A stretch of DNA of 64,000 bases, taken from Gracilibacillus orientalis. Its GTDB lineage: Bacteria; Bacillota; Bacilli; Bacillales; Amphibacillaceae. Below, piece by piece: positions 5,738 through 37,167 of the stretch. Both the position numbers and the translations under genes were made by a program. Positions within the stretch are counted from its first letter, which is position 1, and every line of letters starts with the position of its first letter. The notes beneath the pieces were generated by a model that was not told the origin of the DNA, did no database searches, and saw only the letters and a list, made by a program, of their open reading frames with translations. The stretch is from positions 1 to 64,000 of the forward strand of contig NZ_FOTR01000002.1 in assembly GCF_900114645.1 (NCBI RefSeq). The letters run 5' to 3'.

Positions 5738-6733
5738 TTAGGCCATTGTTTGAAATTGTTCTTTGGATACAGACCATTGAAGTGGCTTTTCATTGATATA
5801 TCGCTTTAATTCTTCTAACATATAAGCACCCATTCTTCCACACTCTTCTCCTTCGCTTCCTGCTAAGTGTGGTGTTAAAACAACATTAGCCATTTGATAT
5901 AACTCTGATCCTTGCTCTGGTGGTTCAGGATCTGTTACATCCAATACAGCTGTGATATCCGTTCTGTCTCGTAAAACTGCTATCATTTCTTTTTCCCGCA
6001 CAATCGCTCCTCTGGCGGTATTGATAAAACTGGCACCTTTTTTCATTAAAGAAAAATGATCAGCCGTAATCATGCCAATTGTTTCCTTCAACAATGGCGT
6101 GTGTAGTGAAATAACGTCTGCAGATCGGAATATATCTTCCAATGAACAGATTGTAACACCTAATTGATTTGCTTCTTCCTCTGAAACAAATGGATCGTAT
6201 GCTAGAATGTCTATATCAAAAGGCTTTAACAATTCTAACGTATGTCTTCCGATGGTACTTAAAGAGAGTAAACCGACAACACTTCGGTAAGCGCCTTTTA
6301 CTTCAAATGGTTTGGATGGATATTGTTGTGAAGCCTGGATATCGCGAACAAATGACCAGCCATTTTTTAAACAAAATAAGATTTGTGATAAGGTGAATTC
6401 CGCCACTGGTCGTCCATTTGCTGTAACCGCTGTAGTAAAAAGGATGCCTCTCTCCCAAGCTGCATCTGTTGCGATTGATTTAATCGAGCCTGCTGCATAC
6501 AACACAGCTTTCAGATTTGGTGCATGCTCTAGCAATCTCTCATCCAACGTTGGGCAACCCCAGCCAGTTAGTAAAATTTCGACATCTTCAAGGATCGATA
6601 GATCGTCCCATAATTGTTCTTTGCTCATAGGTTCAGCTACTATATCTACTGATTCCCCGATCTCTTCTCTGACAAACTGCGGATATACTAAATTAAATGT
6701 ACTTTGCTCCATTACATAAATCGCTTTTTTCAT
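5738..6733 (-). CDS. D-isomer-specific 2-hydroxyacid dehydrogenase family protein
   Basis: This 331-residue protein has the split substrate-binding domain and inserted Rossmann domain of NAD-dependent D-2-hydroxyacid dehydrogenases. The catalytic set is present: R241 in NTARGAIV, E270 in DVTDPEPP and H289 in LTPHLAGS. The nucleotide loop is unusual: where the family has GxGxxG it reads G154-LLSLST-IG162, with serines at two glycine positions. Such loops occur in some sugar-cluster members, but cofactor binding should not be taken for granted. It is the first gene of a two-gene unit with the TIM-barrel isomerase (15-base gap), with an AAGGTG ribosome binding site before the ATG at 6733. The substrate may be a sugar-derived hydroxy acid. 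Confidence 0.82.
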   Translation of the reverse strand: MKKAIYVMEQSTFNLVYPQFVREEIGESVDIVAEPMSKEQLWDDLSILEDVEILLTGWGCPTLDERLLEHAPNLKAVLYAAGSIKSIATDAAWERGILFTTAVTANGRPVAEFTLSQILFCLKNGWSFVRDIQASQQYPSKPFEVKGAYRSVVGLLSLSTIGRHTLELLKPFDIDILAYDPFVSEEEANQLGVTICSLEDIFRSADVISLHTPLLKETIGMITADHFSLMKKGASFINTARGAIVREKEMIAVLRDRTDITAVLDVTDPEPPEQGSELYQMANVVLTPHLAGSEGEECGRMGAYMLEELKRYINEKPLQWSVSKEQFQTMA

Positions 6734-16169: not shown

Positions 16170-19100
16170 TTATTTAAATTGAAACCAGCTAAAGTTAAAA
16201 TGAGAACCTGGTAAAAAAATGAGCGCTACTTTTTGCACACCTTTGATCTGTTCTAGTTCAAAGCTTTTTTCTTTATAACCATCGGTATGATTGAACTCCA
16301 GAATTTCAGCTCTCTCCTCATCTCCATCAAAGAAACGAACATGAATCGAATTTTTATCAATCGGTGAATGACCGTTAATTTCTAACTGAGTAGCACCTTG
16401 GTCTCCAAAGTCAAAATTATCGAACTCAAAAGAAACATTATTTCCAATTTCTTCGACTCGGTCTGGTAACTTATTGAATGTGTCACCATAAATTTGATCA
16501 GCATCTACCACATAATTTTTTGAAAAGGCACGGTTACGTTTTTTAAAAGAGAATCCTTTTATATGCATCTTTTTATTTGTAACGAAAGAGATCGATGTAA
16601 CGCCTTTTAGTTTTTGGGAAAGCTTAAATGTTTCCGGTTGGTAAACATTCCATCTTGATTCTTTCTGATAAATGGTATCCGCTAATCGTTTACTGTTCGG
16701 ATCATCTGGCATTCCTTCCCAAATCTGGAGGTCGTATACTTCACTTGAAAGTGCAAAAATAGGAACGGTAATAACATCTGATCCTTCTTTACCGAAATCA
16801 ATATTACGGAATCCTACTTGTGTTTCACCATCTCGGCTGGTCGCTATCCCTCGCTCGTTACCGTTTGTCACTTCCCCTTTGCTATCATCATACAAACCCG
16901 CAGAAACAAAGGAGAAAGGGTCTTTATATGCAGTGCCTAATCCTTCTGCTTTACATTCTAATTCGGAAATTAAGTTGATGGTGTCTTTTCCATTTTTACT
17001 TGTACAACGAACTCTGAAATCACCGTCTCCAAAAGCAGTAACTGTTGCTTCCTTTCCATCCGCTTTAATAGTAGCAATGTTAGACACAATCCCAACGTCA
17101 TTTACCACGCTCCATTCCACTTCAGTATAATCTGTATTAGTTGGGTAAAGCATGGCACGAACTTTAATTTGTTGCTTTTCTTCGTTTAAGATTTGTCCGC
17201 TGTCTGAACTAATTTCGATTTTCCGTACTGGAATTTCTTCTTGTTTTCCCGTTAACACTTTCATTGGCTGGTTATGATCCAATGACTTCCCTTTTTTGTT
17301 TGACATTGATGTTTCTTGCGAGAATAGTTGTATGGAAGCTTTCGGTAATTCAGGTGAAGTAACTGTAATCGTGACCGAACCAGCTTCTAATGTAGAACCA
17401 ATGATCGCCATCAACTTACCGTTAAATAATCGTCTACTTACCCCTTTGTATTGGTCGTAATCCGTACTGTCTCCATTATCCAATCCTAACAATCGACCTG
17501 CACCCTGGACATCAACATGCACACGATTGTTGGCGTTTTCGACAGGATTGCCATTTCTGTCATTCATACCAATTTCGATAAAAGTAAGATCTGTTCCATC
17601 TGCTTTTATGGTTCTCTGATCAGTCTCCAATTCTATCTCCGCAGGATCTTCAAATGAATATTTTTGATCATGTGCAATCATATGGTTATGCTCATCATAA
17701 GCATAGGCTTCTAAGGTTCCTTTTCGATACAATACTTTCCACCACCCGGATATGGTTTCTCCATGCTGATGATCTAATTCCTGGATTCCTAATGAATCAC
17801 CATTTAAGATTAATTCAACTTTTGGTGCATTAGTTGCTACTCTAACGTCAATCATTTGGCCTTCATTAAAATCCCAATATGGAAAGATATGAACCATTGG
17901 TGCTTTCTTATAATCCGTCCATGCCGATTGATAAATAAAATAAGAATCCTTCTTGAAAGTTGCTGTATCAATTTGGCCAAAATAAGCATTCTTGGTATGA
18001 TATGGAGTCGGTTCCCCAATATAATCAAAACCAGTCCAAATAAATTGCCCTAATGAACATGAAGTATCACGTTCTTTAAGTAATGCCGCTTCTATCGATT
18101 TCGCCCCCCAGCTTGTAGCACTATTTCCAAGTGAAGAACAATGCTGATCATCATCTGCTAAAATTGGCTTATCGAATGGAAAGTGATACACGCCTCTACT
18201 TTGAACAATGGCCATCGTTTCACTACCGTAAATCACCCAATCAGGGTGCTCTTCATGATGTTTCTCATAATATTTTTCTCCGTAGTTATACCCAACCACC
18301 TTGATCATATCAGCACACTTTTGTGCATTTTCCCAAGGCATGTAATTGGAACCAATTGTAACTACTGCATTTTGTTTAGGGTCAAATTGATAAACCGCTT
18401 CCATTAAGTCCTGTGTTACTTGTTGTCCACGTTCATCAGCATGAGTATCATAGATTTCATTTCCGATACTCCACATCAAGAGACTAACATGATTTCGATC
18501 CCGTTTCACCCATGATTCGATATCTTTGTGATACCAATTCTTAAAAAATCTTGCATAATCATATGAGGTTTTCGATCTTTCCCAGATATCAAATGCTTCC
18601 GTAACAACCAGAATTCCCATTTCATCAGCCAGTTCCATCAACTCTTTTGCCGGCATATTATGTGCTGTACGAATTGCATTGACTCCCATATCTTTTAAAA
18701 TCTGCATTCTTCTTTTTAAAGCATTAACATTAAAAGCTGCTCCTAATGCTCCTAAATCATGGTGTTCATTGACACCATATAATTTCATATGGTCACCATT
18801 AAGGAAAAAACCTTCTTTCGGATCAAGTGTTACTTCTTTAAAACCAATATGCTGAGTTTGTGACTCTACTATTTCAGATCTATCTTTTTTCTCTAACGTA
18901 GTAGTTAATTTATACAACTGAGGGGAATCGATATTCCATAGATTTGGATTGGCTATCTGTAATGACAATTCACTGGAAGTTTGTCCTTGTTCGATTAGAC
19001 TGGAAACAGTGGATATCTCCTCTCCCTCTTTTTCAAGTGAATGTGTTAATACTAGTGATTCAGAGGATTGTAGATTAGTGCCACACTCCACTCTCCAATG

Positions 19101-34187: not shown

Positions 34188-35222
34188 CTAGAATACACGT
34201 CCTTCACCAATTCGTTTAGCAAAGCCGTTACATATTAGAATGAGAATAACGCTAATAACGGATTTAAAAATCCCAATTGCGGTACCAAATGAATATCGGA
34301 ACATTCCAATACCATAATCTAATGCATATAAGTCGATAACTAAGGCCTTTTCGGCGACTATATTATTACCTAACAGCATTTGTTTTTCAAAACCAATATT
34401 GATTAAGTTACCAATATTTAAAATAAGTAATACAATGATAACCGGACGAATACTTGGCAATGTAATATGCCACATTTGGCGCCATCTACTTGCGCCATCT
34501 ACTTTTGCTGCTTCATAGAGCTGAGGATCAACACCAGCCATTGCTGCTAAATAAATAATTGCGTTCCATCCTGTCTCTTTCCATACATCTGCAGCTGTTA
34601 CAACCCCCCAAAACATATCTGGTTGAGCCATAAAGTTAAGCGGTTTGTCTAGAATACCTGTATCCACTAACAAATTGTTGATAATTCCTTCTGGTGAAAG
34701 CATGGTGATTACAATATTCGCGACAATTACCCATGATACAAAGTGGGGTAAATAAGATATTGTTTGTGTCCATTTCTTTAAAGTTAAAAACCTAACTTCA
34801 TTAAGGAGTAAGGCAAAAACAATAGCTGATAATGTACCAAATACCAGTCCTAAGATCCCCATCCCCAAGGTATTCTCTAATGCTCGATAAAACATTGGTT
34901 CATTGAAGAGATCTTTAAAATGTTTTAACCCTGCCCATTCTTGATCAAAAATACCTGATTGTGGCTTATAGTCTTGAAAAGCCATCACCCAGCCAGCAAC
35001 TGGAATGTATTTAAAAATAATTAACCAAATCACAAAAGGAAATGACATTAAGAATAACGCCTTTTGTTTACTCAACCTTTGAAAGAAGCCCTTATTGCCT
35101 GGTTTTGGTGCTCGTTTCTTTCCTTTACGCGAAGAAAATCCTGGCTTCACTGGTGTTTGTAAAGGTGAGTTCGACTCAGGAAGATTCGGTTGTGATTCTG
35201 CCGCATTGTTGATTCGACTCAT
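34188..35222 (-). CDS. ABC importer permease, LplB type, importer B
   Basis: This 344-residue permease has an unusually long, basic and proline-rich cytoplasmic N-terminus of about 50 residues (SSRKGKKRAPKPGNKG), then six predicted helices. The EAA loop is YEAAKVDGASRWRQMWHITLP. It is the first gene of importer B. It starts after AGGAGAGAG, and a promoter-operator region lies at 35255-35302. Sequence similarity to the importer X permease (YLPHFVSWVIVA, ETGWNAIIYLAA) suggests a related cargo. Confidence 0.9.
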   Translation of the reverse strand: MSRINNAAESQPNLPESNSPLQTPVKPGFSSRKGKKRAPKPGNKGFFQRLSKQKALFLMSFPFVIWLIIFKYIPVAGWVMAFQDYKPQSGIFDQEWAGLKHFKDLFNEPMFYRALENTLGMGILGLVFGTLSAIVFALLLNEVRFLTLKKWTQTISYLPHFVSWVIVANIVITMLSPEGIINNLLVDTGILDKPLNFMAQPDMFWGVVTAADVWKETGWNAIIYLAAMAGVDPQLYEAAKVDGASRWRQMWHITLPSIRPVIIVLLILNIGNLINIGFEKQMLLGNNIVAEKALVIDLYALDYGIGMFRYSFGTAIGIFKSVISVILILICNGFAKRIGEGRVF

Positions 35223-35254
35223 TTTTTCTCTCTCCTAACCTGTCAACCCTTTAT

Positions 35255-35268
35255 TGAAAGCGTTTTTT
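35255..35268 (-). promoter_or_regulatory. degenerate cre-like site, importer B leader
   Basis: TGAAAGCGTTTTTT matches 12 of 14 positions of the cre consensus. It lies between the -10 at 35281-35286 and the start codon at 35222, where CcpA would act as a roadblock. Confidence 0.45.
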
Positions 35269-35280
35269 TAAGTTACTTTT

Positions 35281-35302
35281 ATTATATTAGAAACCGTTTT
35301 CT
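35281..35302 (-). promoter_or_regulatory. importer B -10 element and adjacent LacI-type operator
   Basis: On the minus strand a TATAAT (35281-35286) is directly preceded by the near-palindrome AGAAACCGTTTTCT (35289-35302), which therefore lies in the promoter spacer. This is the arrangement of a classical repressor site. The operator is related to AGGAAACCGGTTTCCT at 31271. Two further CCGG-centred boxes lie upstream, at about 35327-35340 and 35356-35369. Confidence 0.6.
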
Positions 35303-35373
35303 TAAAAAACATGACAAACGAGACATAAAAACCGGTAAAAAGGAGAGGTGGATTAGCGTGCCGGTTTCAAAAC

Positions 35374-35408
35374 AAAGAACCCGCTTCATTTCTCGAAACA
35401 GGTTCTTT
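35374..35408. other. hairpin upstream of importer B
   Basis: AAAGAACC (35374-35381) and GGTTCTTT (35401-35408) pair perfectly, and the inner segments GCTTC and GAAAC extend the stem with one mismatch. No T run follows on either strand, so it is not an obvious terminator. It may be a protein-binding palindrome. Confidence 0.4.
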
Positions 35409-35495
35409 ATACACGAATACTCCGAATATAGCTTGGTGAATAGAACACACTACCTTACGAGAAGTTTAGCAGAAATAACTTCTATGAGTGTGCTA

Positions 35496-35801
35496 AGATT
35501 TGTCAGTTATATCAAGATAATATACAAATCTCCCTTGAATCAGATGAGATTTGTCAGTTATATCAAGATAATATACAAATCTTCCTTGAATCAGATGAGA
35601 TTTGTCAGTTATATCAAGATAATATACAAATCTTCCTTGAATCAGATGAGATTTGTCAGTTATATCAAGATAATGAACAAATCTTCCTTGAATCAGATGA
35701 GATTTGTCAGTTATATCAAGATAATGAACAATTCATCCTTGCATGAGCTAAGATTTGTCAGTTATATCAGGATAACCTATAAATCTCCCATATGTGAACT
35801 T
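35496..35801. repeat. tandem array of a 51-bp unit, about six copies
   Basis: Unit starts are at 35496, 35547, 35598, 35649, 35700 and 35751, exactly 51 bases apart. Each unit begins AGATTTGTCAGTTATATCA. In copies 1-4 the unit holds ACAAATCT about 20 bases after AGATTTGT, so it can fold into a hairpin with an 8-bp stem; copies 5 and 6 have decayed arms. The first copies are nearly identical. The array fills the gap between the end of the DUF4340 gene (35818) and the control region of importer B. Since 51 is a multiple of three, the array stays open in frame, but that is a by-product. Confidence 0.9.
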
Positions 35802-35817
35802 AGATTAATTAGATACA

Positions 35818-37167
35818 CTATGATTCAGCTTGTATCGTCCACTCTATCGCTTGTTGTAGCTTGTCTTTTTCGATGGTGAAGTCGATTTGGTTGCTGTTGT
35901 TTTTGATTATTGCATAGTGTGTATCCGATATTGCTCGGAATTCGATTGTATTCTCAATGGTTTCGTTGTTCTCATCTGTGATCAGATAGCTTATTATTAT
36001 TTCCGGCTCCTCATCGACTTGTTGCCCATTATATACTTCATCAAAGGTCAGCCCAGCTAATTGTTTGTAATCATCCCGGAAGACTTCAGTCTCCAGTTCT
36101 TCTCCTTCACGAAAAACTGTTGTTTCTACCACATCTTCCGCAGTTTCCTCATGTTCCATTGTATAGGTTACCTGATCTTCCGGTGTCTCAATTGATAGTT
36201 CGTCTATTACTTCGAGTGAAACAATATGAACAAAATGATCAATCACATCATAGGCCTGATGACTATATGGATCCAATAAATCCGTAGGTATCGTATACAC
36301 TTCTTCTTTTCCCTCAACCTTAACATAATACTGATTATCTGCCGCCGGATCACCTACTACTAGTTTCTCGTCTTTTTCTCCATTTGAAAATACAATAGAA
36401 AAGTCAGAATCCGCGAAGCCATAATCCCCTTCCCCATTAACGGTCTCTACTTGTTCGATTCCATCAACACCAACTACCATTTCCTCTGCGTTGGAAAAAG
36501 CTACACTATAAACATTTTGATATGGTTTATGCATATACCAGCCACTTATATGTGCTAATGATTCTTTCTCAGAAAAAGGAGACTCTTTACTCAACTGAAT
36601 TACTTCTTTTCCATTATCTATCTTCATTTCTGTGACATCTTCTGAAGTGACCGTTAAAATCTTATTATTCAGTAACGCTACACGTTGCAGTGGTATCATT
36701 TCAACCGATGAACGATCCACCAAATAAATGGTTTCTTTTTCTTGATGTTCAACATAATATTGTTCACCTTGTTCATGCATTTGACCAACAGCAATTTTTT
36801 GTGTCTCACCTTCCTGATCAGTAAACGAAACGACCACTTTCGGAAAATTTAAATTGACATTCTTTTTATCCACTTCGACTGCTTCTCCTGTCATCTCTTC
36901 CATCGCTAACAAAAAGCTATCCATTTTGTTCGTGTCTACTTCGTTCTCTGCATCAACAACTTGCCAGCCTTGTTCCGTTTTCGTTAAAGAAGTATTCTCA
37001 CTTGCCAACACGTCAATATTGGTTATCTGTTCAAATCGCTCAATGAGCTGTGTGGAATCCTCGTCCGTGTCATTTGTGTCTTGATTAGCATTCACCAATA
37101 AAAATAACAAAACGGACAGTCCAACAATACTTATGAGCACATATATTAATGTTCTGGTTTTCTTCAT
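35818..37167 (-). CDS. DUF4340-domain membrane-anchored protein
   Basis: This 449-residue protein has one N-terminal membrane segment (about 8-26) and a long acidic outside part of beta-rich, DUF4340-type repeats: WQVVDAENEVDTNKMDSFLLAM, then VVSFTDQEG..KIAVG and YYVEHQEKETIYLVDRSSV. The same strand pattern recurs in the C-terminal half (FSIVFSNGEKDEKLVVGDP, QYYVKVEGKEEVYTIP). Function is unknown; such proteins are seen beside gliding or ABC-2 type transport genes elsewhere. Here it is the last gene of a run with DUF624, response regulator and histidine kinase, 12 bases after DUF624. The tandem array follows immediately. A sensor accessory or cell-surface scaffold is possible. Confidence 0.7.
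   Translation of the reverse strand: MKKTRTLIYVLISIVGLSVLLFLLVNANQDTNDTDEDSTQLIERFEQITNIDVLASENTSLTKTEQGWQVVDAENEVDTNKMDSFLLAMEEMTGEAVEVDKKNVNLNFPKVVVSFTDQEGETQKIAVGQMHEQGEQYYVEHQEKETIYLVDRSSVEMIPLQRVALLNNKILTVTSEDVTEMKIDNGKEVIQLSKESPFSEKESLAHISGWYMHKPYQNVYSVAFSNAEEMVVGVDGIEQVETVNGEGDYGFADSDFSIVFSNGEKDEKLVVGDPAADNQYYVKVEGKEEVYTIPTDLLDPYSHQAYDVIDHFVHIVSLEVIDELSIETPEDQVTYTMEHEETAEDVVETTVFREGEELETEVFRDDYKQLAGLTFDEVYNGQQVDEEPEIIISYLITDENNETIENTIEFRAISDTHYAIIKNNSNQIDFTIEKDKLQQAIEWTIQAES

Follow-up and report, generated by a model that had tools for sequence, protein, structure and literature searches.

A dispersed family of extragenic palindromic tandem arrays in Gracilibacillus, with a counterpart in Neobacillus

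The window, a stretch of 64,000 nucleotides from the genome of Gracilibacillus orientalis (labelled G000; by pattern matches that coincide with contig positions in these species, G009 is read as G. suaedae, G014 as G. oryzae and G015 as G. lacisalsi), carries an array of six 51-bp units between two genes read on the minus strand. The features at this locus are:

35496..35801, no strand assigned: array of six 51-bp units, each with an arm of 8, an interior of 20, an inverted arm of 8 and a linker of 15
35496..35546, no strand assigned: unit 1, arms at 35496-35503 and 35524-35531, exact
35547..35597, no strand assigned: unit 2, both arms exact
35598..35648, no strand assigned: unit 3, both arms exact, identical to unit 2
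35649..35699, no strand assigned: unit 4, both arms exact, two changes in the interior
35700..35750, no strand assigned: unit 5, right arm decayed to ACAATTCA
35751..35801, no strand assigned: unit 6, right arm ATAAATCT, linker diverged
35802..35817, no strand assigned: possible remnant of a further left arm, AGATTAAT..., seen by eye and weak
35818..37167, minus strand: DUF4340 gene (PF14238), its 3' end next to the array
34188..35222, minus strand: permease gene of a binding-protein-dependent ABC importer, downstream of the array
35372..35410, minus strand: terminator-like hairpin beyond the array for minus-strand transcripts, -20.5 kcal/mol, z -6.3

Tandem Repeats Finder, an in-register reading of the units and Pfam bear out the six units and their flanks as originally predicted. 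Tandem Repeats Finder reports 35496-35786 with a period of 51, 5.7 copies, 93% matches and no indels; at lag 51 the array is 0.91 identical to itself, and no other lag between 20 and 149 exceeds 0.40 (102 excepted). Read unit by unit, the arms AGATTTGT and ACAAATCT are exact in units 1-4, and single units fold better than shuffles, in agreement with the hairpin-forming capacity proposed for these four: unit 1 (36 nt) folds at -8.9 kcal/mol on the plus strand (z -4.3 against shuffles) and at -6.5 kcal/mol on the minus strand (z -2.4), and the minus-strand fold of 35490-35800 has a z of -3.2. Unit 1 differs from the identical units 2 and 3 at one base and unit 4 at two, while units 5 and 6 are decayed, which fits the proposed recent expansion of the inner copies with a decayed edge. 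The array lies 16 bp from the end of the DUF4340 gene. Two-copy tandem repeats occur in the window at 34479-34504 (13 bp, exact) and 16174-16215 (22 bp, 80%).

The array is not a local oddity; it belongs to a dispersed family. When the unit is searched for elsewhere in the genome, a check the original prediction had proposed, at least 20 arrays come to light, the window array among them. Searched at the DNA level, the genome yields 18 matches, two of which overlap matches on the other strand; a pattern of three arms with loosely set gaps matches 41 times forward and 39 times in reverse, with none for the reversed-pattern control; and the stretches fetched from this genome hold 20 arrays of the same period, one of which (C6:545655) has three arms only. 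A further array, C14:765987, is found with a looser core pattern. The interior CAGTTATATCnnTTTTTGTG or close forms of it are common to most of these arrays, with more symmetric interiors in the window array, C23:62181 and C10, and some arrays have as much as several hundred bases of flank in common. The left flank that some of them share contains a coding-like stretch, which is full of stops. Outside arrays, AGATTTGT occurs 23 times in 285 kb, compared with 6 to 22 times for seven control words; a reading as a scattered uptake sequence was dropped, since there is no clear excess over these words.

Across genomes, the repeats form a family that is dispersed and extragenic in Gracilibacillus and has its counterpart in Neobacillus. 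The exact-arm pattern matches 7 of 159 genomes of the family, all of them among the 17 of Gracilibacillus; with only AGATTT fixed, 10 of these 17 match (four with one match per strand), and the control gives zero in all 17. Pattern scans of contigs recover the same architecture in Neobacillus, Bacillus sp. OV166 and the metagenome-assembled genome RH52, and in the genus of G185 (Neobacillus niacini) 15 of 61 genomes match, 11 with units that look real by eye and four chance-like. The spacing is strongly conserved: among exact arms in Gracilibacillus, the gap is 20 inside the palindrome in 40/41 cases and 15-16 between palindromes in 43/45, and in loci of the Neobacillus type it is 21 inside in 38/38 and 15-16 between in 39/40. 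The period of the architecture is 51-52 bp, and relatives have periods of 52 and 53. Class-wide, 13 of 398 genomes match, 12 of them once and only G. orientalis more than once, compared with 14 genomes for the reversed control; and in the 52 stretches of the genome-contig scan, gaps are scattered outside Gracilibacillus, Neobacillus, Bacillus sp. OV166 and RH52. In these pattern scans the architecture was thus not found above chance beyond Gracilibacillus and a minority of Neobacillus genomes. Plasmids and phages gave no match to the window array at E 0.001, and the four pattern matches in viral contigs have scattered gaps.

Individual arrays persist at fixed positions. Orthologues of the DUF4340 protein occur in 14 of the 17 Gracilibacillus genomes, and the downstream regions of 11 of them (all save G008, G006 and G003; 520-640 bases each) were inspected. 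An array follows the gene in G. orientalis, G002 and G. suaedae. G. lacisalsi has AGATTTCCC twice and GGGAAATC twice at this place, 52 apart and in the same architecture, with both arms rewritten from AGATTTGT/ACAAATCT; in G013, G007, G011, G005, G014 and G010 no array was seen by eye after the gene. G016 (L219 from about 3000) has seven 52-bp copies after its orthologue, which start with AGATTTGT save for one that has AGGTTTGT; no inverted arm was found in this repeat, which is possibly a one-armed form, so that the dyad is not always kept. Between the DUF4340 arrays of G. orientalis, G002 and G. suaedae, arms are 0.91-0.97 identical, interiors 0.61-0.70 and linkers 0.56-0.71, units with more than three arm mismatches having been left out, which makes the arm figure partly circular. 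The window array is old and orthologous across species. Further orthologous arrays are shared by G. orientalis and G. suaedae at two loci, by G. lacisalsi and G. suaedae, and by Neobacillus niacini PL-B1 and RH52; at the orthologous locus beside a Peripla_BP_2 gene, the array of G002 is a short form and G. lacisalsi has none. Unit number differs between orthologous arrays, so the suggestion of a variable-number locus holds in the comparison across species, and units within one array resemble each other more than those of the orthologous array.

Each unit consists of two half-sites of roughly 15 bp that form an imperfect palindrome around a variable centre of 6-7 bp, and these palindromes follow one another head to tail with a linker of 15-16 bp. 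One half is AGATTTnnnnnTnAT in most species. In G008, in part of G. oryzae and in G. lacisalsi the arms are AGATTTCC/GGAAATCT, a CC/GG form in place of GT/AC, and in G010 the half-sites are AGATTTGGTTGTGAT and AGATTTCGTCCTGAT around six variable bases. Half-sites thus differ between species, with both arms changing together, and some positions persist through speciation; in logos, the outer bases and the A at position 14 are conserved and the centre is variable. Among 83 array consensuses, drawn from ten groups and with the central base taken out of the Neobacillus rows, position 8 is paired in 82, compared with 46.8 in shuffles that leave relatedness among arrays in place, position 7 in 73 (54.6 in shuffles), position 9 in 56 (34.3) and position 10, more weakly, in 34 (20.9). 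Positions 11, 13 and 14 are also paired above shuffles, pairing above chance was not found for positions 12 and 15 of these consensuses, and positions 1-6 are fixed by the search and thus uninformative. Within single genera, the excess is seen only at positions 9 and 10 of Gracilibacillus (exact-arm arrays).

Arrays favour the 3' ends of genes. Of 48 placed between two called genes (uncurated open reading frames of at least 90 codons, in a pool that does not include G010), 29 lie in co-directional, 18 in convergent and 1 in divergent gaps; among the 364 remaining gaps of 100 bp or more in the stretches around them, the numbers are 235, 50 and 79. Divergent gaps are thus avoided (1/48 against 79/364, Fisher p 0.0003) and convergent ones favoured (18/48 against 50/364, Fisher p 0.0002). 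In G010, 2 of 10 arrays lie in apparent divergent gaps. The arrays also have a polarity, marked in G. orientalis by TTATC in the interior: it agrees with GC skew in 16 of 20 arrays and with gene-strand bias in 15 of 20, counts in which transcription and replication are not separable, as most genes follow replication. The four exceptions to skew are the window array, C10, C17:67151 and C23:62181, and the interiors of the window array, C10 and C23 are near-symmetric or mixed. In other Gracilibacillus genomes, where arrays were scored differently, by how closely they resemble typed reference interiors, 17 of 20 follow GC skew (G. suaedae 12/12, G. oryzae 4/7, G. lacisalsi 1/1). G002 agrees in four of five, the exception being the orthologue of the window array, and the DUF4340-locus array of G. 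suaedae, by eye, also runs against skew; in G010, with a marker picked once the data had been seen, 7 of 11 arrays follow skew, 3 oppose it and 1 lies where there is none.

That these arrays form a conserved, dispersed family of extragenic palindromes is well supported, and the evidence points to an undescribed kind of bacterial DNA element that selection maintains, as opposed to a one-off tandem repeat. As to what the family is, the reading favoured here, which stands at about an even chance, is an extragenic family akin to STAR and BIME elements, each unit being a dyad-symmetric DNA site bound by a protein, with recombination homogenising the units. Each unit would be a binding site for a putative DNA-binding dimer, and the array a multivalent platform at the ends of transcription units and between convergent genes, which may work in topology, compaction or as a boundary, by analogy with BIME-2/REP or STAR elements; it would grow, and its units stay alike, through slippage, unequal recombination or conversion. 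The protein-binding array of the original prediction is compatible with a dyad symmetry kept through paired changes. Against such a protein site stand the two divergent gaps of G010, the unpaired positions 12 and 15, the possibly one-armed repeat of G016, shuffles that leave relatedness in place, the probable transcription of the window array, and the fact that a hairpin of RNA or single-stranded DNA would have symmetric arms just as well. A wider and more tentative proposal, itself rather unlikely, is that of a chromosomal organising system in Gracilibacillus and Neobacillus, in which a putative dimeric protein would read dyad-site arrays at transcription-unit ends, its specificity co-evolving with the arms (GT/AC, CC/GG and G010-type), and polarity would be set relative to the replication fork.

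The main rival of a protein-bound DNA site is a role in RNA, in which transcribed arrays would fold into hairpin after hairpin within 3' UTRs, slowing 3'-to-5' decay or aiding the end of transcription. The folds of the units, the covariation of the arms, the preference for gene 3' ends and the position of the window array between the DUF4340 gene and an apparent terminator all speak for this role, which is nevertheless improbable on balance. At 39 of the 71 gene 3' ends facing an array, a crude finder of our own calls a terminator-like hairpin ahead of the array, compared with 28 of 72 control gene ends (Fisher p 0.07), a loose comparison, as the control stretches are from G. orientalis only and, at no more than 150 bases, shorter than the test stretches. 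A general role of the arrays as terminators, the 'multi-hairpin transcription end' of the original prediction, is thus unlikely; the units also lack a T-tract after their arms, and those of the window do not have the G+C-rich stem and T run of an intrinsic terminator. The folded Gracilibacillus units have large loops or internal loops, at -6.5 to -10.8 kcal/mol (one unit of the Neobacillus type reaches -19.5 kcal/mol), and six arm bases are nearly invariant, which also weighs against RNA, though the searches were anchored on them. In the window, no terminator-like hairpin was found between the DUF4340 gene and the array, so that the array is probably transcribed; where gene and array thus have no terminator between them, the RNA decay barrier that had been proposed is possible. 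By eye, a hairpin similar to that at 35372-35410 also follows the DUF4340-locus array in G002 and G. suaedae. A scan of 35200-35900 with a terminator consensus gave none and missed the hairpin at 35372-35410 as well, and is hence a weak negative. Rfam has no match in the window at gathering score, and its sole match over the fetched array loci is the L31 leader, in nine of them.

Other readings concern what moves, encodes or merely tolerates the arrays. A non-autonomous, REP-like mobile element spread by an IS200-type (Y1/HUH) transposase would account for the shared flanks of several arrays in G. orientalis and for an interior polarity that follows GC skew (16/20 there and 12/12 in G. suaedae), and is of the kind proposed for RAYTs and REP/BIME: REP/BIME arrays have been tied to RAYT transposases (excerpt of PMC2817692), and some insertion sequences are reported to be associated with REPs (excerpt of PMC1525189). 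An IS200-type gene adjoins an array in G010, where, at C18 (L330 9196-10210), it lies between a SIS-domain gene and the array, with a half unit directly after a hairpin-like end. Nevertheless, the distribution of Y1_Tnp (PF01797), present in 12 of 17 Gracilibacillus genomes, is unrelated to that of the arrays: none was found in G002, G011 and G. lacisalsi and only a 35-position fragment in G. orientalis, while G007 has ten matches and no array match. IS200-type transposase was therefore rejected as the driver and, with orthologous arrays persisting at fixed places, a mobile element is unlikely. Neutral satellite DNA, arising by slippage and drifting, would produce nearly identical inner copies, decayed edges and unit numbers that differ between orthologues, all of which are seen; it would be a poor match to arms that change in pairs, arm gaps conserved in two genera, the avoidance of divergent gaps, and arms 0.91-0.98 identical between orthologous arrays with interiors at 0.47-0.70 (partly circular, given the arm filter), and is judged quite unlikely. 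The core sites of tyrosine recombinases consist of half-sites flanking a variable centre, and the 15-bp half-sites around 6-7 variable bases seen in the logos, most clearly in G010, invite this comparison. However, when the 478 proteins of the array loci are clustered, they give orthologous loci and broad families, and among the ten annotated from the widest clusters, mostly ABC ATPases and permeases, with one nitrite-reductase-like and one amylase-like protein, none stands out as a shared neighbour and none is a recombinase; a recombinase site is very improbable. A protein-coding repeat, finally, could be read from the plus-strand frame at 35358-35879 (173 aa, with 17-residue repeats), which is open and whose period of 51 is a multiple of three; it has no Pfam match, and relatives with periods of 52 and 53 break the repeating frame, which contradicts this reading and leaves it a vanishingly small chance.

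Among known kinds, the family comes closest to BIME-2/REP arrays, which are best known from Proteobacteria, and to the STAR elements of staphylococci. As excerpted from PMC2817692, BIMEs are regularly spaced REPs in alternating orientation, their palindrome kept via complementary changes, and BIME-2 is reported as a strong binder of gyrase; the Gracilibacillus arrays likewise are tandem units of extragenic imperfect palindromes with alternating orientation and regular spacing, in which paired changes preserve the palindrome. They also share a location: REPs, according to the excerpted part of PMC3733652, are placed downstream of coding regions and chiefly in gaps between unidirectional or convergent genes, and the arrays lie mainly in co-directional and convergent gaps. 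They differ in that a cognate RAYT (Y1 transposase) does not track them, in that the GTAG/CGTC tag is absent at the arms of the window units (the G010 half-sites hold CGTC inside), and in that the arms alone are not palindromes, each unit of 51-52 bp forming a single one. STAR elements are intergenic tandem repeats of about 50 nt, with a short conserved motif spaced 40-44 bp, stable positions, and spacers that vary from locus to locus and lineage to lineage, and no function had been described for them at the time of a 2012 review (PMC3532100). The short motif, fixed spacing, intergenic tandem arrays and lineage-differing spacers are common to both; however, the STAR motif T(G/A/T)TGTTG(G/T)GGCCC(C/A), a GC-rich direct repeat of 14 bp, is unrelated in sequence and not found in the window units, and the excerpt describes no inverted partner for it. 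A further difference is that most arrays of G. orientalis are of one interior type, so that its loci are not independent. With CRISPR arrays, the family has in common the regular spacing of repeats but not unique spacers, since interiors and linkers in the window repeat from unit to unit, and it further differs in its alternating inverted motif and in having about 20 arrays per genome. No published description of the Gracilibacillus/Neobacillus family was found among the listed titles and abstract beginnings of open-licence papers, and the main text of the REP survey PMC12306157 names neither genus. In Bacillales, a family whose architecture is fixed, whose positions are orthologous and whose two arms are rewritten in concert, and which no IS200-type transposase tracks, offers a clean case for asking what maintains such arrays, and its species-specific half-sites are ready baits in a search for the binding protein.

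A second dispersed repeat in G. orientalis, without an Rfam match at gathering score, runs from near AAAGCTCAGGAGCGCCCGCTTAAA to near GGAGCTAGACATCTCCGTT and lies close to several arrays at varying positions; it is seen at L140 (5667-6689), L144 (5646-6757) and L132 (5475-5760). At two other loci, L139 (about 6016-6301) and L141 (about 6152-6312), the arrays have about 330-340 bp in common on either side, at 89-94% identity and in opposite orientation, as if the segment had been duplicated and inverted.
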